Shown here: positions 3,127 through 21,068 of the stretch, in pieces
Position numbering within the stretch: position 1 is the first letter of the stretch
How the letters are laid out: each line of letters begins with the position of its first letter
NCBI GenBank assembly: GCA_023958085.1
Contig: JAMLGI010000001.1
Span: 62,001-126,000 of the forward strand
DNA length: 64,000 bases
Source of the DNA: Solirubrobacterales bacterium
Lineage (GTDB): Bacteria > Actinomycetota > Thermoleophilia > Solirubrobacterales > 70-9
Reading direction: 5' to 3'
Position numbers and translations under genes: made by a program
The notes under the pieces: model-generated
The model's input: only the letters and a program-made list of their open reading frames with translations
Told to the model about the DNA's origin: nothing
Databases searched by the model: none

Positions 3127-4695
<1,569 letters not shown>

Positions 4696-4715
4696 GGGCG
4701 GAAGCCACCCTGCCG

Positions 4716-4925
4716 ATGGCGACCGGACCCGAAATCAGCCTCAGCCAACCGGCCACCCCCCGGGAGGCCGCCGCGATCGCAGCTGCGATTCAGCGGTTCC
4801 AGTCCGACACCGCGATCGCCCCGCCACCCGAGCCGACCGGCATGGACCCTTGGCTGAAGGCGGCACTCGAAGATGGCGTGAGTGCCGCCGCTTCGTTCGG
4901 TCTCGCCGAACCCTTCGGAACCTGA
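4716..4925 (+). CDS. Acyl-CoA carboxylase epsilon-like subunit
   Basis: A 69-residue protein starts at ATG 4716, 20 bases after the beta subunit. It has the AccE/PccE layout: a short N-terminus, then PATPREAAAIAAAIQRF (the family has P-x-E-x-A-A-x-x-A), a proline-rich middle, and a tryptophan near the C-terminus (DPWLKAALEDGV). In actinobacteria such small chains join the alpha and beta subunits and raise activity. Its position right behind the carboxyltransferase supports this. Short length makes homology uncertain, but order and motif agree. Confidence 0.75.
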   Translation: MATGPEISLSQPATPREAAAIAAAIQRFQSDTAIAPPPEPTGMDPWLKAALEDGVSAAASFGLAEPFGT

Positions 4926-4986
4926 ACCGCCTCCCCACCGAAGACCCCACAAGCCGAAACCCCACCACCCCAAGGTCCCAAGAACG

Positions 4987-5106
4987 TTCTGGAGCCGATT
5001 GTGGCTTCCATGTGGCCTTTTTCGGCTCCAGAAAGCTGACGGGATCGGCCGATCTCGTTCTGGAGCCGATTGTGGCTTCCATGTGGCCTTTATCGGCTCC
5101 AGAACG
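4987..5106. repeat. Tandem pair of identical-loop hairpins
   Basis: Two direct copies of about 48 bp lie 71 bases apart. Copy 1 has a perfect 12-bp stem (TTCTGGAGCCGA 4987-4998 with TCGGCTCCAGAA 5022-5033). Copy 2 has a perfect 15-bp stem (5056-5070 with 5092-5106). The loops share TGTGGCTTCCATGTGGCC and differ only next to the stem. There is no T-tract, so they do not look like simple terminators. They fill the 241-base gap between the epsilon subunit and dodecin. Confidence 0.85.
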
Positions 5107-5166
5107 GAGCTGGGGGAGTTGGGCGGTTAGGATCGGGTCACAGGCACCCGACGAAGAGGAGGAGCA

Positions 5167-5373
5167 GTGGCAGTAGTCAAGATCATCGAACTGGTTGGCA
5201 GCTCGCGCGTTTCGACCGACGACGCCGCCCAGCAGGCACTCAAGCAGGCCCAGGATTCGCTGCGGAACATCCGGGCGGTGGACATAGTCTCGACCGGGAT
5301 CCGCGGTGAGAACCTCGACGAGTACCGGGCCCACGTTCGGGTCGCATTCCTGATCGAGGGCAAGGACGTCTAG
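5167..5373 (+). CDS. Dodecin family flavin-binding protein
   Basis: A 68-residue protein starts at GTG 5167 with GAGGAGGAG at 5155-5163 as ribosome binding site. It matches the dodecin fold: MAVVKIIELVGSS, then the helix AAQQALKQAQDSLRNI, then EYRAHVRVAFLIE. Dodecins assemble into hollow 12-mers that store riboflavin or FMN. The tryptophan found in the flavin pocket of many dodecins is absent (RNIRAVDIV), as in the shorter actinobacterial branch. A candidate -10 TAGGAT lies about 35 bases upstream of the ribosome binding site. Confidence 0.85.
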   Translation: MAVVKIIELVGSSRVSTDDAAQQALKQAQDSLRNIRAVDIVSTGIRGENLDEYRAHVRVAFLIEGKDV

Positions 5374-5376
5374 GGC

Positions 5377-5433
5377 GATCGTCGGAAGCCTCGTTGCCCT
5401 TCCCCAGCCATACCGCCGAGGCTTCCGACGATC
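5377..5433 (+). repeat. Family I hairpin, 17-bp perfect stem
   Basis: GATCGTCGGAAGCCTCG (5377-5393) pairs perfectly with 5417-5433. The 23-nt loop (5394-5416) starts TTGCCCTTCCCC and is 21/23 identical to the loop of the 2801-2875 hairpin, although the stems are unrelated. It starts 4 bases after the dodecin stop codon. It has no T-tract after the stem, so a plain terminator role is doubtful. Confidence 0.85.
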
Positions 5434-5470
5434 ATCCCTGACCGAGCCCGTTGATGGATGAGGGAGGCGA

Positions 5471-5508
5471 GATCCCACGGCCAGCGGTGTTCACGCACCG
5501 CCGGGATC
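5471..5508 (+). promoter_or_regulatory. Possible structured leader upstream of cysH
   Basis: GATCCC (5471-5476) pairs with GGGATC (5503-5508) around an inner CGGTG/CACCG stem (5485-5489, 5496-5500). A second short stem, CAGAC/GTCTG, lies just before the cysH start. The 190-base stretch before cysH could hold regulation of sulfate assimilation, but no known riboswitch core was recognised. Confidence 0.3.
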
Positions 5509-5621
5509 CCCCACGACCGTCCCTGGCCGACGCTGCGAAAACGGGGTGAGAAAGGATGCCCGTCCATGGGGCGGGATGAGGTGGAAGTGACAGACCTGCG
5601 ATCCTGTCTGACTTCGCTTTG

Positions 5622-6350
5622 ATGAACTCTCTCGGCCCCACATCCAGTCCCACCCCCGAAGAGGTGGAAAGCGAGCGGTCCCGCTTCGGCACGGAAACCG
5701 TTGAGCTGGTCGAGCGACTGAACGCCCGCCAGATCTTCGAGTGGGCCTTCGACGAGTTTGGGGAACGGTTCTACATCGCCTGCTCGTTCCAGAAAACCAG
5801 CTCGGTGATGGTCCACCTGGCGGTGGAGGCAAACCCGGACGCCCGCTTCTTCTATCTGGACACCGGACTGCTGTTCGAGGAGACCTACCGGACCCGCGAC
5901 CGGCTCGAACAGCATTTCGGCGTGAGCTTCGACCGTTGGGCCGGGATCCCCCTTGAGGAGCAGGCCGAGCGCTACGGCGAGCGGCTCTGGGAGCGGGACA
6001 TCGAGCTTTACAACCGGGTCCGCAAGGTTGAGCCGATGCAGCGGGCCCTGACCACTGCAGACTGCTGGGCGGCCGGGATCAGGCGACAGGATTCGGCCAC
6101 CCGGGCCGGTTCACCGAAACTGCTCTGGGATGAACGCTTTGGCATCTGGAAAGTGAATCCGCTCGCCGACTGGTCGGAACGTGAGGTCTGGGCGTTCATC
6201 TATGAACACGACATCCCGTACAACCCGCTTCACGATCAGGGGTATCCTTCCATCGGATGCAAGCCCTTGACCCGTCCGGTGCGACCGGGCGAGTCCGACC
6301 GCGACGGCCGTCTGTTCGGTTCAAACAAGACGGAGTGCGGCATCAACTGA
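5622..6350 (+). CDS. cysH: Phosphoadenylyl-sulfate reductase, cluster-less type
   Basis: This 242-residue protein reduces (P)APS to sulfite with thioredoxin or glutaredoxin electrons. It shows the PP-loop fold (ACSFQKTSSVMVHLA), LDTGLLFEETY, the AGIRRQDSATRA region, WSEREVW, the GYPSIGC turn and the catalytic SNKTECGIN tail. The paired cysteines (CC before RKVEP) and the second cysteine of the CxxC pair that bind the 4Fe-4S cluster in APS reductases are missing: the sequence reads NRVRKVEP and GCKPLTRPV. Lack of the cluster normally marks PAPS-specific enzymes, and the APS kinase gene downstream agrees. Cluster-less APS reductases also exist, so substrate is inferred. ATG 5622 is used; no ribosome binding site is obvious. 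Confidence 0.88.
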   Translation: MNSLGPTSSPTPEEVESERSRFGTETVELVERLNARQIFEWAFDEFGERFYIACSFQKTSSVMVHLAVEANPDARFFYLDTGLLFEETYRTRDRLEQHFGVSFDRWAGIPLEEQAERYGERLWERDIELYNRVRKVEPMQRALTTADCWAAGIRRQDSATRAGSPKLLWDERFGIWKVNPLADWSEREVWAFIYEHDIPYNPLHDQGYPSIGCKPLTRPVRPGESDRDGRLFGSNKTECGIN

Positions 6351-6477
6351 CGGCAGACCGGGCAGCCCGCTGCCCCACGGTCCCCGCCACAACCGCGTCA
6401 CAGGCCCGATGTGGCTAATGTGAGCGGGTGATTCTTCACCAGACCAGTCAAGATAAGCGACAAAGAAGAGCCTCGAT

Positions 6478-7542
6478 ATGACCCAATCCAGCCTGCAGCT
6501 TTCCGAACGCCAGACCGCCGACTTCGAGATGATCGGCAACGAGGGTTTTGCCCCGCTCACCGGCTTTCAGGGTTCCGCCGACTGGGAGAGCGTCTGCGCG
6601 AACATGCGGACCGCCGCGGGCGAGTACTGGCCGATCCCGATCACCCTCGCCACCGACCATCCGGCCGAGGTCGGCGACGTCATCGCCCTGACTTCCGACG
6701 AAGGCAAGGCACTCGGTTCGATCACGGTCGAGGAGATCTACGAACGCGACGTCGAACGCGAGGCCGCCTCGGTTTACGGGACCACCGACAATGAGCATCC
6801 CGGGGTCGCCGCGATCCGGGCCGACGGCAATCGCTGCCTGGCCGGTCCGATCCAGGTCGACGCCCTGCCCGACCACGAGGAGGCCTTCCAGCGGCGTTAC
6901 CTCACCCCGGCCGAGTCGAAGGCCGCCTTCGCCGAGCGCGGCTGGAAGCGGGTGGTGGCCTTCCAGACCCGCAACCCGATTCACCGGGCCCACGAGTATC
7001 TGACCAAGGCCGCCCTCGAAACCTGCGACGGGCTGTTCATCCACCCGCTGATCGGCAAGACCAAGGCCGGTGACGTGCCCGCCGACGTGCGGATGCGGTG
7101 CTACGAGATCCTGATGGAGGACTACTACCCGAACGACCGGGTGATTCTCGGGGTCAACCCCTCGAAGATGCACTACGCCGGCCCCCGGGAGGCGATTCTT
7201 CACGCGATCGTCCGCCGCAACTACGGCTGCACCCACTTCATCGTCGGCCGCGATCACGCCGGCGTCGGGGACTACTACGGAACCTATGACGCCCAGAAGA
7301 TCTTCGAGGAGATCGACATCCGGGAGCTCGGGATCGAGCCGTTGATGTTCGAGCACTCCTTCTGGTGCAACGACTGTGAGGGCATGGCCTCGGGCAAGAC
7401 CTGCCCCCACGGTGCCGAGTCGCATGTATTTCTTTCCGGGACCAAGGTCCGCGAGATGCTGGGACGGGGCGAGGCCCCGCCACCGGAGTTCTCCCGGCCC
7501 GAGGTTGCCGCGATCCTGATTGACGCTTACAAGGAGAACTGA
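6478..7542 (+). CDS. sat: Sulfate adenylyltransferase (ATP sulfurylase)
   Basis: This 354-residue monomeric-type ATP sulfurylase makes APS from sulfate and ATP. Key motifs are QTRNPIHRAH (163-172), GRDHAGVGDYYG (257-268) and a zinc site formed by C297, C300, C309 and H311. It begins at the LxLSERQTADFEMI region, so it lacks the roughly 30-residue N-terminal lead (PHGG...L) usual in bacterial homologues. A stop codon in frame 24 bases upstream rules out a longer form. AAAGAAG stands a few bases before ATG 6478. The APS kinase gene starts directly after its stop codon, so the two are cotranscribed. Confidence 0.95.
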   Translation: MTQSSLQLSERQTADFEMIGNEGFAPLTGFQGSADWESVCANMRTAAGEYWPIPITLATDHPAEVGDVIALTSDEGKALGSITVEEIYERDVEREAASVYGTTDNEHPGVAAIRADGNRCLAGPIQVDALPDHEEAFQRRYLTPAESKAAFAERGWKRVVAFQTRNPIHRAHEYLTKAALETCDGLFIHPLIGKTKAGDVPADVRMRCYEILMEDYYPNDRVILGVNPSKMHYAGPREAILHAIVRRNYGCTHFIVGRDHAGVGDYYGTYDAQKIFEEIDIRELGIEPLMFEHSFWCNDCEGMASGKTCPHGAESHVFLSGTKVREMLGRGEAPPPEFSRPEVAAILIDAYKEN

Positions 7543-8091
7543 ATGGAAACCAAAGGCTTCACCCTCTGGTTCACCGGACTTTCCGGGGCCGGCAAGACCA
7601 CCATTTCCGAGATCGTCGCCCGTGAGCTAAAGGCTCGCGGATCGAAGCTGGAGATCCTGGACGGGGACATCGTCCGCGAGAACCTCTCCAAGGGACTCGG
7701 CTTCTCGAAGGAGGACCGCGACACCAACATCCGCCGGATCGCGTTCGTCGCCGACCTGCTTTCCCGCAACGGCACGCCGGTGATCACCGCCGCGATCTCC
7801 CCCTACCGGGCGATTCGTGAAGAGGCCCGCGAGTTGATGGGCGACCGTTTCATCGAGGTCTACATCGACGCCTCGGTCGAGGTCTGTGCCGAACGGGATG
7901 TGAAGGGCCTTTACGCCAAGGCCTTCGCCGGGGAGATCAAGGAGTTCACCGGGGTTTCGGACCCGTACGAGGCACCGGAGAACCCGGAGCTGGACCTGAA
8001 GACCGCCGAGGAGGAGCCGGAAGAGTCCGCCGCTCGCCTGATCGCCTACCTGGAGGAGCGGGAGCTGATCCCGGCCGCGGTCGCCTCCTGA
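7543..8091 (+). CDS. cysC: Adenylyl-sulfate kinase
   Basis: A 182-residue kinase phosphorylates APS to PAPS. It has Walker A GLSGAGKT (12-19), the [16 protein letters not shown] region, [12 protein letters not shown] and the [15 protein letters not shown] substrate lid. Its ATG abuts the sat stop codon with no gap, indicating translational coupling. Together with Sat and the cluster-less CysH it makes a PAPS-dependent assimilation route. A strong terminator follows. Confidence 0.95.
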
Positions 8092-8113
8092 CCCTCACCA
8101 CAGCAGCTTCACC

Positions 8114-8143
8114 AAAGGGCGGCCGGAGAGCCGCCCTTTTTTA
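8114..8143 (+). terminator. Intrinsic terminator of the sulfate operon
   Basis: A perfect 10-bp stem (AAAGGGCGGC / GCCGCCCTTT) with a 6-nt loop runs into TTTTTT, 22 bases after the cysC stop. Confidence 0.93.
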
Positions 8144-8162
8144 TTCCCATCCAGAGGATTGT

Positions 8163-8283
8163 GGTGGGGCCGGGCGATGGGGGTCTTGTTGCTCTTCCAC
8201 ACCAACCTGAGTGGTGAGGCCGGGTGGTGGGGGTGTCGGTTGCCCGTCCCCCCCCCCACCGCCGAGATCCCCACCACCCGACC
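8163..8283 (+). repeat. Family I repeats: partial copy plus full hairpin
   Basis: A partial copy (8163-8217, with GGGCGATGGGGGTCTTG and TTGCTCTTCC) is followed by a full hairpin. In the full copy, arms 8218-8239 and 8262-8283 pair at 19 of 22 positions and one of the exceptions can form G-U. Its loop keeps TTGCCC and then has a run of ten C. The stem again differs from those at 2801 and 5377. Confidence 0.75.
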
Positions 8284-8306
8284 TTCGACAGTGGGCGTGG
8301 TACCGG

Positions 8307-8356
8307 CAACTCAGTGAACGTGAACAGACCCACCCTGGATGCAGGGTGCCCCCCGC
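8307..8356 (+). repeat. Family IV module (GTGAACGTGAAC), forward copy
   Basis: The block CAACTCAGTGAACGTGAAC, then GACCCACCCTGGATGCAGGG, recurs on the opposite strand at 24019-24062 and, more diverged, at 50441-50485. It holds a tandem hexamer GTGAAC-GTGAAC and a short CACCC/GGGTG stem. The other two copies border hairpin arrays; this one does not. Confidence 0.75.
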
Positions 8357-8414
8357 CGGTGAATCGCCCGCAATTCACACCGAACGGCCACCGTTGCAAG
8401 AGGACAAGACGGAA

Positions 8415-8460
8415 GGGTGGGCACCTCTACCGCTGTATACGACGGGTTAGGTGCCCACCC
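8415..8460. repeat. Perfect 12-bp inverted repeat
   Basis: GGGTGGGCACCT (8415-8426) and AGGTGCCCACCC (8449-8460) flank a 22-nt loop. It has no T-tract. It stands just upstream of the second family II element. Confidence 0.8.
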
Positions 8461-8488
8461 GGGCGGGGCGTTGGGCAGTCAGGGTTCC

Positions 8489-8633
8489 GCGGGTGGTTTC
8501 CTGCGGAGACTCAGGGGGTGGCTGCCGAGGACTAGAGCCGGAAATCACCGCGATTTTACGTGGGTAAATGAGCTGTGGTTTCCGGTGTCTGACGAAGGCA
8601 GGCGCCCCCTGAGGCCCGCAGGTAACCGCCCGC
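8489..8633 (+). ncRNA. Family II structured element, copy B (candidate RNA)
   Basis: The core 8510-8613 is exactly as long as copy A (104 nt). The closing stem CTCAGGGGGTGGCTGCC (8510-8526) pairs with 8597-8613 at 16 of 17 positions, with one G-G mismatch at the same place as copy A. The inner hairpin TTAC, loop GTGG, GTAA replaces GTAC/GTAC of copy A. On the plus strand nothing is encoded downstream: the element runs up to the 3' end of the minus-strand PHP gene. So this copy is not a 5' leader; it is either a free-standing small RNA, a 3' element of the PHP transcript on the other strand, or a DNA repeat. Confidence 0.6.
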
Positions 8634-8635
8634 CC

Positions 8636-9442
8636 CTACGGCTTGGGGGGGATCTCCACCTCGCCGAGTCCGAAGGTGTTGTAGGCGCCGAAGCGGCTGA
8701 AGGTCTTGTGGGTGGGGCCGTGGTAGTCGGATGAGCCGGTGGCGGAAACCCCGAGTTCACGGGACAGCTCGTACAGATGCTCGGTCTGCTTCGTCGTGTG
8801 TGACGGGTAGAAGACCTCGATCCCGCCGATGTCGAGCGCCCGGATCAGTTCCTCGACCTGGACCGGGTCCTTCACGTCCCAGTACGGGTGGGCGATCACC
8901 GGTACGCCGCCCGCTTCCCGGATCAGGGCGCAGGCCTCGTTCGCGTCCGGCCAGCGACGGGAGACGAAGGCCTTGGCTCCGGGTACCAGCCACTCCTCGA
9001 AGAACGGCCCCAGGTTGCCGGTCGCACCGGCGGCCTTGGCGATGTGGGGCCGGCCGATCGCGTCGGCGCCGCCGGCTTCCCGGATCGCATCCTCGAAAGT
9101 GAGGTCGAACCCGTGCTCACGCAGATTCGCGACGATCTCCCTGGCCCGTTCGCGACGCTCCTCCTGGGCCCGCTCGCAGGCTGCGGCGATCTTCTCGAGG
9201 TCCATCCAGTAGCCGCAGATGTGGAGGTCCTCGGCGTACTCGTGGACCGAAGACATCTCGACCGCGGGCACGATCTCGACCCCGAGACGCCCCCCGGCCT
9301 CGATCGCCTCCGGCACCCCGGCGACCCCGTCATGGTCGGTCAGGGCGAGCACCTCGACTCCGGCCTTCGCCGCCTCCTCGACCACCCCTGCGGGGTGGAG
9401 CTGACCGTCGGAAACCGTGGAGTGACTCTGAAGCTCGATCAT
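8636..9442 (-). CDS. PHP-domain phosphoesterase, TrpH/YciV-like
   Basis: A 268-residue protein starts at ATG 9442 (MIELQSHSTVSDG). It has the PHP metal motifs LTDHDGVAGV, PAVEMS, IGRPHIA, VIAHPYW and a terminal GSSDYHG. The family includes nucleotide 3',5'-bisphosphate phosphatase and the 5'-3' exonuclease RNase AM. An oddity is that the first metal histidine of the usual DLHxHS is glutamine here (ELQSHS), so metal site 1 may be altered. A TACCAT hexamer ends 9 nt upstream of the start, with no ribosome binding site. The gene diverges from the biotin carboxylase gene; two hairpin repeats lie between. Confidence 0.8.
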   Translation of the reverse strand: MIELQSHSTVSDGQLHPAGVVEEAAKAGVEVLALTDHDGVAGVPEAIEAGGRLGVEIVPAVEMSSVHEYAEDLHICGYWMDLEKIAAACERAQEERRERAREIVANLREHGFDLTFEDAIREAGGADAIGRPHIAKAAGATGNLGPFFEEWLVPGAKAFVSRRWPDANEACALIREAGGVPVIAHPYWDVKDPVQVEELIRALDIGGIEVFYPSHTTKQTEHLYELSRELGVSATGSSDYHGPTHKTFSRFGAYNTFGLGEVEIPPKP

Positions 9443-11532: not shown

Positions 11533-13599
11533 TTGAGTAACGCGCCGACACGGAAGCAGCTGCTGACGGGCGGCGGCCATCTGGCCGCAGTCTGGACCCT
11601 TGCCTTCGTCCAGCCACTGCTGGACCTGCTGGGCCGGAACCCGGACTTCTTCGTAGCCCGGGACAACACCTCCGGTGACGTCCTGATCCTGGCGCTCGCC
11701 TTCACTCTGCTGCCCCCGCTCGGGCTGCTGGTGATCGAGTGGGCGACGAGCAAGGTCAGCGCCCGGGCCTACAACTGGCTCCACCTGGTCCTGCTGGCCG
11801 GCATCTCGACCTTCCTCTTCATCCGGCTGATCTCGACTTTCCTCGACCGACCGACCGGGCTGATCCTCCTGCTGGCGGCCGCTCTGGGGGTCCTGCTTGC
11901 CTGGGCGGTGTTCCGCTTCACCTTCGCCCGGAACCTGATGGACATCCTGATCGTCGCTCCATTGGTGGTGCTGGGCCTTTTCATCTTCGTCAGCCCGGCC
12001 CGGGAGGTGATCTTTCCCGGGAAGGAGTCCGACAAGCTGAATGCGGCGAAGGGTGAGAACCGGCCGATCGTGCTGGTGATCTTCGACGAACTCGGCACCG
12101 GCGACCTGATGGCCGACCGCGACACGATCGATGCGGAACGCTTTCCCGAGTTCGCTCGACTTGCCCGCGAGGCGACCTGGTACCGGAACCAGTCCACCAC
12201 CTCGCCGTTCACCCCGCAGGCGGTTCCCGGAATCCTCACCGGTCAGGCCCTGTCGAAAGATGTTCTCCCCGCCTCCTGGAATCTGCCGGACAACATCTTC
12301 ACTCTGCTCGGCCGCGACCGGAACTTCCACGTGATGGAGGACGTGACCAAGCTCTGTCCGGTTGCGCTCTGCCCCCAGAACCGGATTCGGTGGCGTCAGC
12401 TCAGAAGGCTGAACGCGCTCTGGTCGGATCTGAAGTACGTCGAGGGCCGGATGATCCTGCCGCCCGGACTGGCCGACCGCCTGCCCGAGGTCGACGGCAA
12501 GTTCCAGGACTTCGGCAATGCCCGGGGCGACGCCAATTCACAGCCCTTCCGCAAACTGGTCGCCCATCACGGCCGCGGCGGCGGCAATGCAGCCACCGTA
12601 AGCCGGTTCATCAGGGACATACCGGACGGCCGGAGGGGACTGACCGTGATGCACCTGGCCCTGCCGCATCACGAGTGGCGGTATGCCGCCGACGGACGTT
12701 CCTACAACTGGAAACCGCTGTCTGAGCTCGGAGCCTCGGCCGGCGAGTGGGGGGTCGACTCGAACGGAATCGCCAGCGCCCAGGCCCGGATGTACGTGCA
12801 GACCGGGTTCGCCGACCGGCTGGTCGGAGAGTTGCGCCGGAGCCTGGAACGAAAAGGACTCTGGGACGACGCGGTCGTGGTGATCTCCGCCGACCACGGG
12901 CTCTCCTTCGAAGGCGGCGATGTGCCGCGCCGGGTGGCCACTCGGGCGGGGGTGGGCGAGATCGGGAACCCGCCGCTCTTCATCAAGTACCCGGGCCAGC
13001 GCCGAGGCCGTACGGTCACCGCCCACAGCACCACCCTCGACATCCTGCCGACGATCGCCCGGGCGGTCGGGGTGAAACCGACCTACAGAATGGATGGAGT
13101 CCCGCTGCAACGGAGGGTGCTCCCGGATCGGCCGGTCACCCTGCAGCGCCTCGTGAACGATCCGGTAACGATCACGGTGGAGGAGATGGTGGCCCAGAGA
13201 AACGCGGCGATCGGCCGGGCCCGAAAGCGTCTTGGCGGGGGTCCGCTCTACACCCTCGGCCCCGCCCCGAACTTGATCGGCCGCCGGGTCCCGCCGGTTC
13301 CGGCCACCGCCGATTCGGCAGTCCTTGATGCCCGGGGAATCTGGCGTAGGGTCCGCCCCGCGGGCAGTCCGGTCCCGATCAACGTGACCGGACGCCTCCC
13401 GTCCGGGGCGCCCGGAACCGTGCTGGCGATCGCCGTGAACGGGGTGATTCGCGGAACCGCCGGAACCTTCGAGCATGACGGTGCCGTTCGCTTCGGCGGG
13501 CTGATCGATCCCGCCTCGCTGGTCCCGGGGGCCAACCGGATCGGGATCTACATGGTCGAGGGAAAGCGGCTGGCCCCGCTGGGAGACAACCGTCGCTGA
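11533..13599 (+). CDS. LtaS-like membrane phosphotransferase, first paralogue
   Basis: A 688-residue protein starts at TTG 11533 with GGGGAGA a few bases upstream. About five transmembrane helices fill residues 15-165, followed by an alkaline-phosphatase-superfamily domain: VLVIFDELGTGDLM (metal aspartate), FTPQAVPGILTG, HLALPHHEW, VISADHGLSFEGG and a late HSTTLDILPTIARAVGV. At the place of the sulfatase formylglycine cysteine (CxPSR) it has threonine (TPQAVPGILTG), as in lipoteichoic-acid synthase and phosphoethanolamine transferases. A phosphodiester-transfer role on a surface polymer is inferred. It is paralogous to 15400-17568 and starts a four-gene operon. Confidence 0.75.
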   Translation: MSNAPTRKQLLTGGGHLAAVWTLAFVQPLLDLLGRNPDFFVARDNTSGDVLILALAFTLLPPLGLLVIEWATSKVSARAYNWLHLVLLAGISTFLFIRLISTFLDRPTGLILLLAAALGVLLAWAVFRFTFARNLMDILIVAPLVVLGLFIFVSPAREVIFPGKESDKLNAAKGENRPIVLVIFDELGTGDLMADRDTIDAERFPEFARLAREATWYRNQSTTSPFTPQAVPGILTGQALSKDVLPASWNLPDNIFTLLGRDRNFHVMEDVTKLCPVALCPQNRIRWRQLRRLNALWSDLKYVEGRMILPPGLADRLPEVDGKFQDFGNARGDANSQPFRKLVAHHGRGGGNAATVSRFIRDIPDGRRGLTVMHLALPHHEWRYAADGRSYNWKPLSELGASAGEWGVDSNGIASAQARMYVQTGFADRLVGELRRSLERKGLWDDAVVVISADHGLSFEGGDVPRRVATRAGVGEIGNPPLFIKYPGQRRGRTVTAHSTTLDILPTIARAVGVKPTYRMDGVPLQRRVLPDRPVTLQRLVNDPVTITVEEMVAQRNAAIGRARKRLGGGPLYTLGPAPNLIGRRVPPVPATADSAVLDARGIWRRVRPAGSPVPINVTGRLPSGAPGTVLAIAVNGVIRGTAGTFEHDGAVRFGGLIDPASLVPGANRIGIYMVEGKRLAPLGDNRR

Positions 13600-13749
13600 A
13601 CCGAAAGTCGGCTCCCGCAGGCACCCGGGATGCGGCGATCTCCGCGCAGGGTCTGTGTTGAACCCCGTCACCGCACGGATCGAGTAACATTCCGCGGTCG
13701 GTGGGCTGCCAGTGGCTTGCCGCTGCCCAAAACAGGAAGGACCGTCACT

Positions 13750-13971
13750 ATGGATCTCTTTGCATATCTTGACCCCGGAAGCGCCAGTGCCCTGCTCGCC
13801 GCCGTCCTCGCCGGAGTGGCCGGAATCGGTGCTGCGTTCCGCAGCTACGGCAAGCGTTTCATGAGCGTGATCATGTTCTGGAAGAAGGACGAGCCGGCCG
13901 TCGACGGGCCTGCCGCGAGCGAGGAACCCGCCTCCGATTCGTCCGAGCAGTCCAAGAGCTCCGACAGCTGA
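13750..13971 (+). CDS. YLDPGS-type single-pass mini-membrane protein
   Basis: A 73-residue protein starts at ATG 13750 after CAGGAAGG. It begins MDLFAYLDPGSASALLAAV and has one transmembrane helix (about 13-33), a basic segment (RSYGKRF) and an acidic serine-rich tail. Small YLDPGS(G/A)S proteins are often found next to surface-polymer phosphotransferase and methyltransferase genes, where their role is unknown. It lies between the first LtaS-like gene and the methyltransferase and ends 3 bases before the latter. Confidence 0.7.
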   Translation: MDLFAYLDPGSASALLAAVLAGVAGIGAAFRSYGKRFMSVIMFWKKDEPAVDGPAASEEPASDSSEQSKSSDS

Positions 13972-13974
13972 TCG

Positions 13975-15396
13975 GTGGCAAACGCAGAACCCGGTTCCTT
14001 CAGGGACCGTGACAGCCGCGTCGTCGTCGCCGGCGACGCGATCTACCGGGCGCTGAGTCCGGAGGGCACCGAGGACTGGGAGGCACTGGCCGCCACCCCG
14101 TTGCTCGACTCGCTGGTCAACGCAGGCGATGTGATCGCCACCAGCGAAGTCGATGCCGCACGCCTCGAAGAGATCGGTTCCGCCACCGGGACCGACCTGC
14201 TGCCCACCGGGGTGGAGCGGGTCCTCGAGCACGAGCGGATCCCGTTCATCTCCTACCCCTATGAGTGGACCTTCAGCATGCTGCAGGACGCGGCCACGCT
14301 CCAGCTGGATCTGGGGATCGCCGCGATCGAGAACGGTCTGAACCTGAAGGACGCGACCCCCTACAACGTTCAGTTCCGCGGGGCGAAGCCGGTCTTCATC
14401 GACGTCGGCTCGTTCGAGAAGCTGCCGGAAGGCGAACCCTGGGTCGGGTACCGCCAGTTCTGCATGCTTTACCTGTACCCGCTGCTGTTCCAGGCTCACA
14501 AGGATCTGCCGTTCCATCCCTGGATGCGGGGCTCGATCGACGGGATCGAACCGATCGACGCGATCAAGGTCTTCTCCCTGCTCGACCGTTTCCGCAAGGG
14601 CGTCTTCATGCACACCTCGCTGCACGCCCGTCTCGACCGCCGGGCGAACAAGTCCGGTCCGGGCGAGGCTGCCGCGAACGCGAAGAAGCGGGAGACCAAG
14701 CCGGAACAGAACAAGGCGATGATGGCCAGCCTCAAGCGGCTGGTCTCGAAGCTGCGCTGGAAGGCCGGCGAGACCTCCTGGAGCGGTTATCGGGCGGACA
14801 ACACCTACAGCGACCAGGACGACCAGGCCAAGCAGACCTTCGTGGCCAAGGTGGCCGAGGCGAAGAAGCCCGGCCTGACCTGGGACATGGGCTGCAACGA
14901 CGGCGCCTACTCGCGGATCGCCGCCGAGTCCTCCGACCTGGTGATCGCCTTCGACTTCGACCACGCGACGGTCGAGGCGCTCTACCGGTCGCTGCGCGAA
15001 GAAGGCAACGACAAGATCCTGCCGCTGGTTTCGAACCTGGCCGACCCCTCGCCGGCCCTTGGCTGGCGCGGCCTCGAACGCCAGACCCTCTCCGATCGCG
15101 GTGCCCCGGACCTGATGCTGGCCCTGGCCCTGATCCACCACGTCTCGATCTCGGCCAACATCCCGATCGCGGACTTCCTCCAGTGGGCCCGTGATCTCGG
15201 CACCACCCTGCTGATCGAGTTCCCGAAGCGGACCGATCCGATGGTCGAGGCCCTGCTCGCCAACAAGCATGACGGGGCCAACCCGGACTACGACCTCGAC
15301 AACTTCGAACGGGAACTGGAGCGCCGCTTCACCGTCGAGCAGCGTGAGGAGCTGCCTTCCGGCGACCGGGTCCTCTTCCTCGCCGTCCCGAGGTAG
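13975..15396 (+). CDS. SAM-dependent methyltransferase with N-terminal extension
   Basis: A 473-residue protein starts at GTG 13975. The N-terminal half has DATPYNVQFRGAKPVFIDVG, as in the NoeA-related methyltransferase group. The C-terminal half is a class I SAM-binding domain: LTWDMGCNDGAYSRIAAE (motif I), VIAFDFDHATVEALY (motif II), and LALALIHHVSI. A lysine-rich stretch joins the halves. The substrate is probably a surface glycan or its lipid precursor, judged by the operon; this is inference. The next gene starts 4 bases after its stop. Confidence 0.75.
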   Translation: MANAEPGSFRDRDSRVVVAGDAIYRALSPEGTEDWEALAATPLLDSLVNAGDVIATSEVDAARLEEIGSATGTDLLPTGVERVLEHERIPFISYPYEWTFSMLQDAATLQLDLGIAAIENGLNLKDATPYNVQFRGAKPVFIDVGSFEKLPEGEPWVGYRQFCMLYLYPLLFQAHKDLPFHPWMRGSIDGIEPIDAIKVFSLLDRFRKGVFMHTSLHARLDRRANKSGPGEAAANAKKRETKPEQNKAMMASLKRLVSKLRWKAGETSWSGYRADNTYSDQDDQAKQTFVAKVAEAKKPGLTWDMGCNDGAYSRIAAESSDLVIAFDFDHATVEALYRSLREEGNDKILPLVSNLADPSPALGWRGLERQTLSDRGAPDLMLALALIHHVSISANIPIADFLQWARDLGTTLLIEFPKRTDPMVEALLANKHDGANPDYDLDNFERELERRFTVEQREELPSGDRVLFLAVPR

Positions 15397-15399
15397 AAC

Positions 15400-17568
15400 G
15401 TGGCCGATCCGGAACCGGCCGGGAAGAGCGGGCCGGCACTGAAGGGCCTGGCCGCCGTGTTCGGCCGGCCGGCCCCGACCCGTCGTCAGCTCCTGCTCGG
15501 GGGCGGCCATCTGGCCGCCCTCTGGGCCCTCGCTTTCGTTCAGCCGCTACTCGATCTGCTCGGCAAGAACCCGGACTTCTTCGTCGCCCGCAGCAACACC
15601 CCGGGCGACATCCTGATCGTCGCGATCGGCTTCACCCTGCTGCCGCCGCTGGCGCTGCTCGCGGTCGAGTGGCTGGTCAGCAAGCTGAGCAGCAAGGCCT
15701 ACTACGGGCTCCATTTCGCGTTTCTGGCCCTGATCGCCACCTTCTTCTTCATCCAGCTGATCGGCGACCGGATCGGTGCCCGCAGCGCGGTGATCTTCCT
15801 GATCGCGCTCGCCCTGGCCTCCCTGCTCGCCTTCGGGATCTTCCGGATCACCTTCCTGCGGAACCTGATGGACATCCTCATTGTCGCCCCGCTGGTCATC
15901 CTGCTGCTGTTCATCTTTGCCAGCCGGAGCACCGATGTGATCTTCCCCAAGGGCTCCAAGTTCAGTCTGGCAAAGGATTCCGGCGATGATCGCCCGATCG
16001 TGCTGGTGATCTTCGATGAACTCGGGACCGACAACCTGATGACAGACAATCGTCAGATCGACGGAGCCCGTTTCCCCAACTTCGCCAACCTCGCGAAATC
16101 GAGCACCTGGTACAAGAACCAGACCACCACCGCCTTCCTCACCCCGATGGCGGTCCCCGGGATTCTCACCGGCAGGGACGAGTCGGCCGACACCCTGCCG
16201 ACCTGGCAGGCCCGCCCGGAAAGCATTTTCAGCCAGTTCAGCCGCGGCCGTCAGGTTCACGTGCTGGAGCCGGTGACCGCGATCTGCCCACCGATGATCT
16301 GTGGTTCCGATCAGCAGGACGAGAGCCAGGCCACCCGGCTGAAGGCGCTCTGGTCCGATCTTAAGTACGTGGAGGGGCGGCTGATCCTGCCCCCCGGCAT
16401 GGCAGCCACCCTGCCCGACGTGAGCACCAACTTCCAGGGTTTCGGTGGCGACGGCGGAGACAGCCCGGTCGGAGGTACCGCGCCGAAGCCGGGCAAGCAC
16501 CTGATCCGCAAGAAGGGCAAGCTTTTCGTCAAGGCGTTCGCCAGCGGAGACCCGGCCGAGTACGAGGCCTTCATCCGCCAGATGCCGACCAGCGACCGCA
16601 GCCTGACCGTGATGCACATGTCGCTGCCTCACACCCAGTGGAAGTTCGACGCCCGCGGCCGTCGGTACAACAAGAGTCCGATCGACACACTCTCGGACGG
16701 GATCGACCAGTGGCTGGTGGACGGCAACGGGATCGCCACCTCGCAGGCCCGGATGCTCACCCAGACCGCCTACGCCGACGACGTTCTCGGCCAGATCCGC
16801 CACCGGCTGGAGAAGTCCGGCCTCTGGGACAAGGCGATCGTGGTGGTATCCGCCGACCACGGAATCTCGTTCGAGGGAGATGGCGTGGAGCAGCGCCGTC
16901 TCAACCCGCGGGCGATGGGTGACGTCGCCAATCCGCCGCTCTTCATCAAGTACCCCGGCCAGAAGAAGGGGCAGGTCTCGCTCACCCACAGCATGACCCT
17001 GGATATCGTCCCGACGATCGCCAGGGCGGTCGGGGTGAAGAACCCGTACAGGACCGACGGACTTCCGCTTCAGGGCGAGATTCCGTCCCGGCAGATCAAG
17101 GTCACCGACACCAAGGGCGGCACCCTTACCGCCGATGAGGCGACGATGATCAGGCAGCGGGCAGAGTCGATCGCCCGGGCCAACGAACGGCTCGGCACCG
17201 GTCCGATCTACACACTCGGACCGGCTCCGGAACTGCTCGGCCGACCCGCCCCGGCGGTGCCGTCCGGCAGCAGCGGCGCCCAGCTCGACGATCCCTCGCT
17301 GTGGCAGAACTACAAGCCGGGAAGAGACAGGATCCCGATGTTCATCACCGGCCGCACTGCTGCTCCCGCGCCGAGCGATCCGGCCGATGCGCCGGTGATC
17401 GCGGTCGCGGTCGACGGGGTGATCCGCGGCACCGGCAAGGTTTTCGAGTTCAAGGGCGCCACCCGTTTCGGGGCACTGGTCGATCCGAAGTCGCTGCGTC
17501 CGGGGGCGAACAGGATCGGCATCTATCAGGTGGAGGGCGATCGCCTGACGCCGCTCGGCGGTAACTGA
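15400..17568 (+). CDS. LtaS-like membrane phosphotransferase, second paralogue
   Basis: A 722-residue protein starts at GTG 15400, coupled to the methyltransferase. It repeats the plan of 11533-13599: GGGHLAALWALAFVQPLLDLLGKNPDFFVAR, five transmembrane helices, VLVIFDELGTDNLM, TPMAVPGILTG with threonine at the nucleophile position, MSLPHTQW, VVSADHGISFEGD and a C-terminal beta domain. An extra segment near residues 355-380 is not present in the first copy. The two proteins probably act on the same class of polymer. Confidence 0.75.
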   Translation: MADPEPAGKSGPALKGLAAVFGRPAPTRRQLLLGGGHLAALWALAFVQPLLDLLGKNPDFFVARSNTPGDILIVAIGFTLLPPLALLAVEWLVSKLSSKAYYGLHFAFLALIATFFFIQLIGDRIGARSAVIFLIALALASLLAFGIFRITFLRNLMDILIVAPLVILLLFIFASRSTDVIFPKGSKFSLAKDSGDDRPIVLVIFDELGTDNLMTDNRQIDGARFPNFANLAKSSTWYKNQTTTAFLTPMAVPGILTGRDESADTLPTWQARPESIFSQFSRGRQVHVLEPVTAICPPMICGSDQQDESQATRLKALWSDLKYVEGRLILPPGMAATLPDVSTNFQGFGGDGGDSPVGGTAPKPGKHLIRKKGKLFVKAFASGDPAEYEAFIRQMPTSDRSLTVMHMSLPHTQWKFDARGRRYNKSPIDTLSDGIDQWLVDGNGIATSQARMLTQTAYADDVLGQIRHRLEKSGLWDKAIVVVSADHGISFEGDGVEQRRLNPRAMGDVANPPLFIKYPGQKKGQVSLTHSMTLDIVPTIARAVGVKNPYRTDGLPLQGEIPSRQIKVTDTKGGTLTADEATMIRQRAESIARANERLGTGPIYTLGPAPELLGRPAPAVPSGSSGAQLDDPSLWQNYKPGRDRIPMFITGRTAAPAPSDPADAPVIAVAVDGVIRGTGKVFEFKGATRFGALVDPKSLRPGANRIGIYQVEGDRLTPLGGN

Positions 17569-17575
17569 TCCCGTT

Positions 17576-19249
17576 TCAGTTCCGGGGATGCGTCGGCCAG
17601 GGGGGTGCCGGAGCGCGGCAGGCGGCGCCGGCACAGCCACGAAGTCTGGCCAGCTGGCGGGACATGTACCGCTCGATCCGTTCGTAGCCCGGCTCGCCAA
17701 AGCGGTTCTTCAGTTCGTACGGATCCTTCGGCAGCACGTACAGCTCGCCCTCCCCCTCGGCTTCGTACCGGATGTACTTGTACGGTCCGACCCGGATGCC
17801 GACGTAGTTCTCGTTCGGCGCCTTGGCTGAAACCTGTGCCCGGCGCGGAATCGCACCGCCCGGCCCGAACAGGGAAAGCGGTTCGTCGGGATAGTCGCCG
17901 GGGATCAGGTGGGTTCCGGCCTGGTAGCTCTCCAGCAGGATCGGCCGTCGGCTGATCCGGCCGGGTTTCTTCCAGAACGGGACCATCGAGCGGCCGTCGA
18001 TCCGGTATCCGGAACCCTGGGTGCGGGCCAGCCTGAGCAGGGTCGGAGCGATGTCCTGGTTTGCGACCAGCTCCCGGCTGGTTGTCCCCGGGCGGATTCC
18101 GGGACCGCGGATCACGAACGGGACCCGCAGGGCCGGTTCATACGGAAGCAGCTTGCCCCGGTGGATCCGATGCTGGCCGAGGAAGAAGCCGTTGTCCGAG
18201 GTGAAGATCACATACGTGTTCTTCAGCCGGCCGGTGTCCCGGAGGGCGGCGATCACCCGGGCCACCCCTTCATCCACCGAGCGCAGAGCCTCGACCGACT
18301 TCTGATACTCGATCCCGAGCTGGGTCACCTCGTTCGAACTGAGGCGGGGGAGGTCGTAGCGCAGGAACCAGGGCTTGTCCGACACGTCGGCCTCGTTGTA
18401 GCCGCCCGGAGTCGGCCCCGGGGTCTGGGCCGCAGTGTCGTAGTGCCGGGTGGCCGGTTCCGGGCCGATCGGTGGCCGGGAGTCACCGTGCGGAGTATGG
18501 AAGTCGAGTTGGAGGTAAAGCGGTCGTCTGCCGGGGTTGCCCCGGATTTCGCGGGCCGCCTGGACCGACATCGAGTCCGAATGGTAGTTGCACTGGGCCA
18601 GTCCGAGGGTCGGGCAGCCGAGCGGATCCCGGCCGCCGAGCAGGTCGTAGGACGGGTCCCCCATCCGCGGGGTGATCTGACCGTTGACGTTCTGCCGGTA
18701 GCCGTAGAACTCCCGGGTCGAGTTGTCGGTCGCATCAGACACCCACTGGTCCCAGCCGGGTGGAACCTCCGCTTCCGCCGGGGCGTCCGGACCCCCGTAG
18801 TGGTTGATGAACTTGCCGAAATGCGAGGTGCGGTAGCCGGCTCGCTGCAGCCAGACCGCCAGGTTCTCGTTGCGGATCGGGTTGCTCCGGTAGCCGTCCC
18901 ATCCGCCGCGGGGCCCGACGATCCGGACCACCCCGTGGTTCTGGGCGTACTGCCCGCTGAGCAGTGAGGCCCGCGAGGGAGCACAGAGCGGGAACGGAGT
19001 CACGTACTGACGGAACTCGATTCCCCGGTCGCGGATCATCCGCTGGGTGTTGGGCATGATCGGGCGATTGCGGCCCCAGAGGTCGGTCCAGCGTCCGTGG
19101 AACTCCTCCAGCGGCTGGTCATCGGTCTGGATCACCACGAAACTGGGCCGTGGAGCAGCCCCCGCCCAGGCGGGTGGCCAGAAGAAAAGCGTGAGTGCAG
19201 CCGCGAGAACGGATCCGAGCGCGGCGAGTTTTGCGGAACGGGGAATCAG
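17576..19249 (-). CDS. Exported sulfatase, formylglycine type; non-canonical start
   Basis: The sulfatase core has VVIQTDDQP (metal site), CAPSRASLLSGQY (cysteine converted to formylglycine), and FTSDNGFFLGQHRI. The first ATG/GTG/TTG in frame (GTG 19138) starts inside the first beta strand. Upstream the frame stays open and encodes a good Sec signal peptide (IPRSAKLAALGSVLAAAL...PAWAG). No canonical start exists before it; CTG 19249-19247 or ATT 19246-19244 follow a GGAG at 19257-19260 with 7 or 10 nt spacing. CTG is chosen here, giving 557 residues. The enzyme probably cleaves sulfate esters outside the membrane. It converges on the LtaS-like gene with 7 bases between. Confidence 0.75.
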   Translation of the reverse strand: MIPRSAKLAALGSVLAAALTLFFWPPAWAGAAPRPSFVVIQTDDQPLEEFHGRWTDLWGRNRPIMPNTQRMIRDRGIEFRQYVTPFPLCAPSRASLLSGQYAQNHGVVRIVGPRGGWDGYRSNPIRNENLAVWLQRAGYRTSHFGKFINHYGGPDAPAEAEVPPGWDQWVSDATDNSTREFYGYRQNVNGQITPRMGDPSYDLLGGRDPLGCPTLGLAQCNYHSDSMSVQAAREIRGNPGRRPLYLQLDFHTPHGDSRPPIGPEPATRHYDTAAQTPGPTPGGYNEADVSDKPWFLRYDLPRLSSNEVTQLGIEYQKSVEALRSVDEGVARVIAALRDTGRLKNTYVIFTSDNGFFLGQHRIHRGKLLPYEPALRVPFVIRGPGIRPGTTSRELVANQDIAPTLLRLARTQGSGYRIDGRSMVPFWKKPGRISRRPILLESYQAGTHLIPGDYPDEPLSLFGPGGAIPRRAQVSAKAPNENYVGIRVGPYKYIRYEAEGEGELYVLPKDPYELKNRFGEPGYERIERYMSRQLARLRGCAGAACRAPAPPWPTHPRN

Positions 19250-19328
19250 ACTGATACTCCAATAACACTCCGGTCGGGCGAAGATGCGTTTTCCGAAGCC
19301 TGAAACCCGGCTTTCACCGGGTGGGCGA

Positions 19329-21068
19329 TCAGGAGCCGGAAACGTCGGGCGGCTCGGGCCAGGGCGGGAGCGGCGCCCGACAGCTTGCTCCGGCGCAGCT
19401 GATTACCCGCCGGTAATGCTTCTGCATGTAGCGCTTCACCTGAGCGTACTGCGGGTCCGCGATCCGGTTGTCGAGCTCATACGGATCGTTGGACAGGTCG
19501 TAGAGCTCCCGTTCGCCGGTCTGGTACCGGAAGTACTTGTAGGGCCCGATCCGGTAGCCGCGGTAGGGCACCGAGGGTGCCCGGCCGACCACTGTGATCA
19601 GCTTGCCCGTGGCCACGCCCTTTTCGCCGGTCCCGACCACCGCGTCACTCTCGCCTTCCAGTCCGCCGAAGTAGGCGATCTGGTACGGCCGCCGGGTGCG
19701 CTGCTTCGGGTTCTTCCAGAACGGGACCATGGTCCGGCCGTCGACCTTGTAGTCGGCCTTGGTCCGGGCCAGCTGCAGGACCGTGGCGGGAACGTCGATG
19801 TTGCCGGTCAGCTCGGCGGTCTTGGTTCCGGGCTTTATCCCCGGACCCCGGACCGCCATGCCGACCCGGGCGGACGGCTCGAACGGCTGGAACTTGCCTC
19901 GCACGAAACGGTGCTCGCCGTAGAACTCGCCCTGGTCCGACAGGAAGAACACGTAGGTGTTGTCCATCTGGCCGGTCTTCTCGAGGGCGTTCAGGATCGC
20001 TCCGACTCCGTCGTCCACGCCCCGCACCGTCTCCACGTAGCGACGGTAGGCACGGGTGAGCCGCGCCATGTTCAGGGGGGAGATCGGGGGGCCGGCGGAA
20101 CGCTGGGTGCGTTCCGGCTTGTCCGACATGTCGGCCTCGTTCACCGACGGGTTGCGCGGCAGGCCGGTGCGATCGGCGGAACCGAGGTAGCGGGTGGGCG
20201 GGGTCGGCCCGCCCGGGGGTCGCTTGTCCCCGTGTGGCGCCTGGTAGTCCACCTGGAGGTAGAACGGCTGATCCGGGTTCTCGCCGTTTCGCTTGATCTC
20301 CTCAACCGCCCGTCTGGTGGTCACATCCGACTGGTAGTTGCACGGCACACCGTCGGGGCTGCGGGGGGTCATCGCCTTGCAGCCGGCCGGATCGATCCCG
20401 GTCGGGGGCGTGATTCCGGGTACACCCAGGGAGTAGTCGGGGTCGCCGAACGGACCGACAGCCTCGCCGTCCGAGTTCACCCGGAAACCGTAGTACTGGG
20501 CTCCTTCCAGATAGGCGGTGGTGAACCAGCGATCCCAGCCCGGGGGGACGGTCAGGTCGACCCCGTTGTTCCGGGCGTCCCAGTATCCGTTCATCAACTT
20601 GCCGTAGTGGGCGGTGCGGTAGCCGGCCTCCTGGAGCGTGAGCGGCACGTTGTGATCCCAGGTCTGAAGTCCCTGCCAGCCGGACCAGCCCCCGGTCGGA
20701 CCGTTGTTGCGGAGCAGGCCGTTGTTGTCCGAGTACTGACCGGTCATCAGCGAGGCACGGGAGGGCGAGCAGACCGGAGTCGAGGAGTAATAGTTGGTGA
20801 ACTCGGCTCCCTGGTCGACGATGCCGCGGATCGTCCGTGGCATGATCAGCCGTTGCCGGCCATTGCGGTCCCGGAACTCTCCCTTGAAGGTGTGCCGGTT
20901 CTGGTCGTCGGTCTGGATCACGACGATGTTCGGTCGTTCGCCGTGGGCCACCTGGGGCGACCGATCCGAGGTCCGGGCGAACGCCAGCCAGTAGACCAGC
21001 AGGACCGCGACGATCACGGCGGCTGCCAGAAAGAGCTTCCGGGGGGTTGAGAGGCTGGAGATCTTCAT
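19329..21068 (-). CDS. Exported sulfatase, formylglycine type
   Basis: A 579-residue protein starts at ATG 21068 with a signal anchor (about residues 11-30). The core has NIVVIQTDDQNRHTF, CSPSRASLMTGQYSDN (formylglycine site), GKLMNGY, and VFFLSDQGEFYGEHRFVRGK. It is a paralogue of the sulfatase just downstream at 17576 and probably shares its transcript. A formylglycine-generating enzyme must be encoded elsewhere, since none is in this window. Confidence 0.85.
   Translation of the reverse strand: MKISSLSTPRKLFLAAAVIVAVLLVYWLAFARTSDRSPQVAHGERPNIVVIQTDDQNRHTFKGEFRDRNGRQRLIMPRTIRGIVDQGAEFTNYYSSTPVCSPSRASLMTGQYSDNNGLLRNNGPTGGWSGWQGLQTWDHNVPLTLQEAGYRTAHYGKLMNGYWDARNNGVDLTVPPGWDRWFTTAYLEGAQYYGFRVNSDGEAVGPFGDPDYSLGVPGITPPTGIDPAGCKAMTPRSPDGVPCNYQSDVTTRRAVEEIKRNGENPDQPFYLQVDYQAPHGDKRPPGGPTPPTRYLGSADRTGLPRNPSVNEADMSDKPERTQRSAGPPISPLNMARLTRAYRRYVETVRGVDDGVGAILNALEKTGQMDNTYVFFLSDQGEFYGEHRFVRGKFQPFEPSARVGMAVRGPGIKPGTKTAELTGNIDVPATVLQLARTKADYKVDGRTMVPFWKNPKQRTRRPYQIAYFGGLEGESDAVVGTGEKGVATGKLITVVGRAPSVPYRGYRIGPYKYFRYQTGERELYDLSNDPYELDNRIADPQYAQVKRYMQKHYRRVISCAGASCRAPLPPWPEPPDVSGS

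Follow-up and report, generated by a model that had tools for sequence, protein, structure and literature searches.

A small membrane protein and a predicted kinase-methyltransferase (KMT) are a unit conserved across bacterial phyla, and enzymes of the alkaline phosphatase (AP) fold, of more than one type, are its usual partners. The window analyzed is a 64,000-nucleotide stretch of a Solirubrobacterales genome (assembly GCA_023958085.1, contig JAMLGI010000001.1, positions 62,001 to 126,000). Within it, genes for two predicted membrane enzymes of the AP superfamily (AP1 and AP2) flank the genes for a 73-residue microprotein carrying a YLDPGS motif and for KMT. Gene order, modelled folds, conservation of catalytic residues and very strong co-occurrence directly support the module. 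The favored explanation, with a probability of about 0.45, is a three-component envelope-modification module that would install methyl-phosphate on a surface glycan or lipid, AP1 being an extra copy of AP2. The KMT/microprotein/AP module is apparently an undescribed bacterial system present in more than one phylum.

Linkage of the microprotein and KMT across genomes

The four genes lie on the plus strand and encode AP1 (11533..13599, 688 residues), the microprotein (13750..13971), KMT (13975..15396, 473 residues) and AP2 (15400..17568, 722 residues). Gaps of 3 bp each separate the microprotein, KMT and AP2 genes, whereas AP1 and the microprotein are 150 bp apart. The start codons are TTG for AP1, ATG for the microprotein and GTG for both KMT and AP2. 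Profile searches of the source genome return a single match each for KMT and the microprotein. The original prediction had two paralogues flanking a YLDPGS protein and a methyltransferase, and this layout holds.

Homologous KMT loci numbered 80, and 78 had room upstream of KMT. A short open reading frame (ORF) with the microprotein motif lies directly upstream of KMT in 76 of the 78; in the two exceptions the microprotein is on the opposite strand (L040) or on another contig (L036, the same organism as G091). The G091 microprotein (L153, 1164-1649) has a normal motif and sits between unrelated genes, with KMT and an AP gene together on another contig. A second organism also appears under two labels (L032 = G117). 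The strict motif was counted in 66 of the 80 loci; variants, YLDAATGS for example, were present among the 12 misses, and a wider pattern was then used. Short ORFs with the motif number 78 in 1.96 million codons of KMT loci; all but two of them immediately precede KMT, the two being the L040 copy and an additional real copy in L062. The motif ORF is so rare away from KMT that chance does not explain the linkage. The L062 locus (4190-9386) has the order AP, microprotein, AP, microprotein, KMT, with a microprotein of its own after each AP gene. Three loci titled Bifidobacterium breve (L073, L080 and L081) have KMT and microprotein sequences resembling those of Ilumatobacteraceae and are probably mislabelled bins.

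Among 119 genomes of the class, full-length KMT was found in 13 and the microprotein in the identical 13. Of 21 class genomes, 8 had partial methyltransferase matches only (E ≥ 6e-7) and were left out of the KMT count. The AP family was detected at E ≤ 1e-60 in 11 of the 119 genomes, all among the 13 with KMT. The KMT genomes without it, G005 and G041, encode another membrane protein beside the module. The G041 protein matches Pfam Sulfatase (27.6 bits; cut-off 25); the G005 protein has no Pfam sulfatase match and is a homologue of the L037 protein, itself a sub-threshold match. A survey of 396 genomes of the phylum found KMT in 42, the microprotein in 44 and both in 40, and the matches in the four microprotein-only genomes are all at E ≥ 4e-5. 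The paired genes are same-strand neighbors in 39 of the 40 genomes and lie on different contigs in G035. Fisher tests, which ignore phylogeny, gave p = 1e-17 and 7e-14 for the class survey and also 9e-48.

The 398 Pseudomonadota genomes yielded 14 microprotein matches, 8 of them at E ≤ 5.2e-8. All seven strong matches with surroundings examined have KMT and an AP-fold gene adjacent in varying order, the AP-fold calls resting on a profile or phmmer match. The eighth, in G492 (the L041 genome), has KMT adjacent and no AP gene adjacent. Microproteins apart from KMT directly adjoin an AP-fold gene in six of eight cases. An AP1/AP2-type gene was seen in 44 of the 80 KMT loci, and 7 additional loci have a second AP-like type. 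Of 25 genomes without the AP1/AP2 type near KMT, 12 actinobacterial genomes carry it elsewhere (E ≤ 4e-85), 10 have weak AP matches only and 3 have none; one of these three (L058) has the second AP-like type adjacent. Module records come from Actinomycetota and Pseudomonadota, plus one planctomycete and one acidobacterial record. The KMT tree requires 5 changes among four groups where the minimum possible is 3, indicating that it largely follows phylum with some mixing. Of the four genes, whose co-occurrence in other genomes was raised in the original prediction, the microprotein and KMT are found together across phyla, with AP-fold partners of more than one type.

Domain composition of the module proteins

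The gene labelled METHYLTRANSFERASE is modelled as a two-domain protein, a kinase-METHYLTRANSFERASE, in which a kinase-like half precedes a methyltransferase half. The initial call of a methyltransferase captured the C-terminal S-adenosylmethionine (SAM) methyltransferase fold but overlooked the kinase-like N-terminal half. The KMT alignment (A1) comprises 63 of 81 sequences, near copies and cut ones omitted: the window copy plus 62 homologues that share 39-82% identity with it. The records span four phyla. Residues R25, K125, D126, N131 and D143 are invariant in all 63. The predicted catalytic loop K125-D126...N131...D143 (14347..14403, plus strand) is recognized by this invariance, by kinase C-lobe element order and by register with WbdD 357-395. 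D126 is 5 residues from N131, and N131 is 12 from D143, a spacing close to that of protein-kinase-like catalytic loops. The KMT model (predicted local distance difference test score [pLDDT] 89.8, predicted template modelling score [pTM] 0.91) has a helix at 100-119, a strand at 122-124, the loop, strands at 132-135 and 138-141, D143 and a helix at 159-176. In the model these elements follow kinase C-lobe order. Two modelled strands around R25, preceded by a conserved G7-S8-F9, resemble an N-lobe.

The C-terminal half (265-473) has a SAM methyltransferase fold (Z = 17-18 with CmoA and NodS) that contains the SAM-binding motif I, D304-x-G-C-N-D-G310, identified in the alignment (14884..14904, plus strand). 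The RNA phosphate methyltransferases MePCE (Z = 17.2) and BCDIN3D (Z = 16.5) are among the fold matches, and unrelated methyltransferases score alike. A whole-KMT profile was run against PDB sequences, and at E ≤ 0.005 it returned only three WbdD sequences (E = 7e-4, weak in absolute terms); the next match was an isoaspartate methyltransferase at E = 0.007. The match covers the methyltransferase of WbdD, and a second HMMER stretch aligned KMT with the WbdD kinase catalytic loop in register, with the domain order opposite. The KMT N-terminal half very probably has a kinase fold, an assignment that rests on motif, topology and WbdD register since the profile tests against kinases are not significant. 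KMT would probably add both a phosphate and a methyl group.

AP1 and AP2 share 53% identity across 699 columns and match Pfam Sulfatase at 50.3 and 58.6 bits, respectively (cut-off 25). The structural model is that of AP2 (722 residues, pLDDT 90.5, pTM 0.89), and AP1 was assessed by its identity to AP2 and by motifs. The AP2 model has helices at 28-56, 68-94, 98-122 and 129-149 and a broken fifth helix (151-160 and 163-174), followed by a phosphatase/sulfatase fold and a C-terminal beta domain. The fold search returned sulfatases, phosphonate monoester hydrolases and YejM at Z = 25-28 over 275-307 residues. The root mean square deviations were 2.9-4.1 Å, except for one full-length YejM row at 13.4 Å. 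Full-length YejM/PbgA, MCR-1 and LtaP are also among the Foldseek matches, and 6v8q, 6xlp and 9nww are full-length chains combining helices with the sulfatase fold. The AP alignment (A2) has 47 rows, 9 from the source genome (G000) and 38 from KMT loci. Its invariant residues include D206, E207, E290, H406, H411, D460, D486, H487, R499 and K517. Alignment and motif position predict T248 as the AP2 nucleophile (16141..16143, plus strand), and motif position predicts T227 in TPQAVPGILTG of AP1 (12211..12213, plus strand). Thr is near-invariant here, occupying the position in at least 90% of the rows. AP1 and AP2 do not match the S1-type nucleophile motif C/S-x-P-S-R and have Thr instead, in T-P-x-A-V-P.

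These results agree with the original prediction that both paralogues have five N-terminal helices and a Thr nucleophile, through the model for AP2 and through identity and motifs for AP1. The helix plus phosphatase arrangement is found in the AP2 model, and the metal-site residues D206, E207, D486 and H487 are present. The specific assignment as LtaS-like polymerases is not supported. AP1 and AP2 score 23.2 and 31.4 bits against an LtaS equivalog cut-off of 970, and AP2 scores 15.7 bits against the curated YejM/PbgA cut-off of 825. Among solved sequences, LtaS fits the AP family profile less well than do phosphonate monoester hydrolases and a number of sulfatases. Phosphodiester chemistry at the surface, which had been proposed in the form of a polymer, stays plausible. 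The source genome has nine AP-family matches at E ≤ 1e-60, so the AP1/AP2 pair is part of a larger expansion. Three clustered shorter paralogues on contig C10 (L020, 38001-56000) of this genome appear by eye to have signal-like starts replacing the five helices. Another paralogue (L151, C1:180000-199000) borders an apparent surface-polysaccharide locus, recognized by eye, with glycosyltransferases, an aminotransferase, a flippase-like protein and methyltransferases as neighbors.

The microprotein starts MDLFAYLDPGSAS and has one predicted membrane segment. Its YLDPGSAS motif (13765..13788, plus strand) has Tyr and Asp invariant in the 36-row family alignment (A4). The protein has no match in Pfam or NCBIfam, and its best PHROG match is at chance level (E = 0.31). 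The hydrophobic segment follows the motif. In the 36 rows, the mean number of Lys plus Arg is 0.28 ahead of the motif and 4.2 over the 20 residues that come after the hydrophobic segment. By the positive-inside rule for membrane topology, this concentration of Lys/Arg after the membrane segment suggests that the motif is outside and the basic tail inside. The motif Tyr is present in 114 of 115 microprotein profile matches, the exception (L159) having Cys; the Asp is present in 110 and replaced by Gly in 5, a count equal to that of the YVGPG rows. Rows for the profile were picked for a Tyr-containing motif and the 115 matches include near copies, so Tyr conservation is supportive rather than independent evidence. 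The L159 protein (7317-7523) is an orphan adjoining neither a KMT nor an AP gene. Many proteobacterial microproteins have a signal-peptide-like start with AxA, the signal-peptidase cleavage rule, directly before the Tyr.

Among the six weaker Pseudomonadota matches, five (L188-L192) represent a related microprotein in which AxA precedes YVGPGAGLS. The loci tested contain an arylsulfotransferase in four of four cases (L188, L189, L190 and L192) and a sulfotransferase family member in three of three. A membrane protein without family assignment lies beside this sister microprotein at five of five loci, and no KMT match was found at these loci. The part of PMC11576661 that was consulted contained nothing on natural roles. 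The sixth weaker match (G912) falls within an ORF of 670 residues and looks fortuitous. A Pfam 60KD_IMP (YidC-type) protein is encoded in the L063 KMT cluster, with homologues 3' of KMT in L058, L066, L070 and L071. Comparison of the membrane protein of the arylsulfotransferase loci with the YidC-type protein gave an hhalign probability of about 1%, no better than controls; no relation was shown, and an insertase parallel was abandoned.

Proposed function and alternative explanations

In the favored mechanism, cytosolic KMT would phosphorylate an acceptor and then methylate that phosphate in a WbdD-like manner. The AP enzyme, held by its five-helix anchor with the active site outside, would transfer or cut a phosphodiester using the Thr nucleophile and metal site. 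Its direction and acceptor are presumed, and a glycan or lipid at the surface would end up carrying the methyl-phosphate. The microprotein may act as a dedicated membrane partner that couples KMT to the AP enzyme, its YLDPG(S/T)xS motif facing outward at the membrane surface and its basic tail in the cytosol. The near-obligate association of microprotein and KMT, with an AP-fold enzyme as the usual companion, points to a widespread envelope modification.

Several results weigh against this mechanism. The kinase-like half has no significant match in Pfam or PDB sequences, and the WbdD kinase-loop stretch alone is not significant (-1.6 bits). An hhalign comparison of the KMT N-terminal profile (A3) with 52 E. 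coli K-12 proteins ranked the kinase-fold control SrkA second at a probability of only 0.85%; of the other four controls, ThiK ranked 25th and WaaP, WaaY and YniA lower. The same profile gave 0.08% against an APH-kinase alignment. The KMT fold search probed the methyltransferase half only; matches to that half filled the lists, and the absence of WbdD and kinases from them carries no weight. Two genomes (G267 and G300) have KMT without a microprotein seen, KMT being at a contig end in both, and the G417 (L159) and G091 (L153) microproteins have neither KMT nor an AP gene next to them. A number of loci have no AP-fold gene adjoining KMT, six gammaproteobacterial genomes have weak AP-family matches only, and the AP family is without a match at 1e-10 in the L084 and L086 genomes. 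KMT loci supplied most of the rows of the microprotein and AP profiles, and the co-occurrence statistics take no account of phylogeny. The annotated neighbors at 3.1 to 22.8 kb of the window include no polysaccharide gene.

An alternative considered unlikely makes the microprotein Tyr itself the carrier. KMT would put methyl-phosphate on this Tyr, the modified N terminus would be moved to the outer face, and the extracytoplasmic AP enzyme would decorate the surface with the aryl phosphodiester as donor. In the sister form, equally unlikely, the sulfotransferase would esterify the Tyr of YVGPGAG after AxA with sulfate, and the arylsulfotransferase would use the aryl ester as donor. Both module types retain the Tyr (114/115), it directly follows a signal-peptidase-like AxA in many proteobacterial members, and the sister microprotein accompanies arylsulfotransferase (4/4) and sulfotransferase family genes (3/3) at the loci tested. 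The Tyr-based selection of profile rows and the near copies among the 115 count against a carrier role, as does the requirement that KMT encounter the exported Tyr ahead of its translocation. In most actinobacterial members only a few residues precede the motif, and a signal peptide is absent. If true, this scheme would provide the natural donor for such arylsulfotransferases and a new way of moving activated groups across a membrane.

The remaining alternatives concern individual enzymes. A scheme with KMT as a WbdD-like terminator and the AP enzymes as diesterases that trim or recycle the capped glycan outside is improbable. The closest solved sequences to the AP family are phosphonate monoester hydrolases, which cut diesters, but the module copies keep five membrane helices, more typical of transferases using lipid donors, a feature that is weak evidence. 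The idea that AP1 and AP2 are LtaS-like polymerases or transferases building or decorating a teichoic-like polymer, with KMT and the microprotein as accessories, is marginally less probable still; it draws on the five helices, AP fold and Thr nucleophile, on LtaP and MCR-1 among the fold matches, and on the paralogue beside the apparent polysaccharide locus noted by eye. The LtaS model score (31.4 bits for a cut-off of 970) and an AP profile nearer to phosphonate monoester hydrolase argue against it, and it leaves the tight KMT/microprotein link unexplained. Least probable is a reading of the KMT N-terminal half as a pseudokinase or binding domain, with KMT acting simply as an O-methyltransferase of a sugar or lipid. 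The lack of a significant match to any kinase family fits that proposal, but D126, N131 and D143 are invariant in the 63 aligned sequences from records of four phyla.

Genomic neighborhood and comparison with known systems

Two sulfatase genes follow on the minus strand (17576-19138 and 19329-21068), both with Cys nucleophile motifs (CAPSR/CSPSR). Genes for 3'-phosphoadenosine 5'-phosphosulfate (PAPS) reductase, ATP sulfurylase and adenosine 5'-phosphosulfate (APS) kinase lie upstream of the module at 5619-8091. The Cys motifs and these nearby genes make sulfate scavenging the simpler role for the sulfatases, which together with the assimilation genes probably serve sulfate scavenging and assimilation. 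The original prediction grouped both with AP1 and AP2; they are present at 17576-21068, but the Cys type and the upstream assimilation genes mean that four enzymes of one pathway are not borne out. Being of the Cys type, they were also rejected as members of the cross-phylum module. Genome G059 too has three AP-profile matches, of 48-50 bits, close to its module. A protein with a WsaF C-terminal domain is encoded at 99-1424 of the window.

A search of the open-access literature (5.39 million papers) found no description of the YLDPGS motif and a single YIDPG occurrence in one paper, and none of the papers listed describes, by title and opening of the abstract, an operon of this kind with a kinase-methyltransferase, a small membrane protein or an arylsulfotransferase. 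An Actinoplanes exopolysaccharide cluster was set aside; in the part of the source available its kinase and methyltransferase are separate genes, so it is not a KMT module (PMC13390465). Within the portions of the literature consulted, methyl-phosphate capping is described only as O-antigen termination. WbdD is the kinase-methyltransferase that caps chains with methyl-phosphate in E. coli O9a and K. pneumoniae O3, according to the section consulted (PMC3482155). KMT resembles WbdD in having a methyltransferase domain and a putative kinase domain in one chain, in its best PDB sequence match and in a catalytic loop in register. It differs in reversed order, the kinase-like half being first, and in ending after the methyltransferase with no coiled coil. 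It also lacks a visible O-antigen operon, and it is tied to the microprotein and, in most cases, to an AP-fold enzyme. A second reported solution to methyl-phosphate termination is the methyltransferase-kinase ORF6 of K. pneumoniae O7, whose sequence is unlike WbdD (PMC11231755); ORF6 differs from KMT in being a coiled-coil multi-module protein encoded in an O-antigen cluster.

AP1 and AP2 share with LtaS and LtaP five membrane helices followed by an AP-fold domain with a Thr nucleophile, on a membrane side that is presumably the same. They differ in scores far under the LtaS cut-off, in the extra C-terminal beta domain of AP2 and in their operon. PbgA/YejM and EptA/MCR likewise combine helices with a sulfatase fold as AP2 does, and AP2 is separated from YejM by its score of 15.7 bits for a model cut-off of 825. 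The ASST/AST systems share with the module a microprotein, the sister form that accompanies ASST and sulfotransferase genes, and differ from it in sulfate rather than phosphate chemistry and in having no KMT match.

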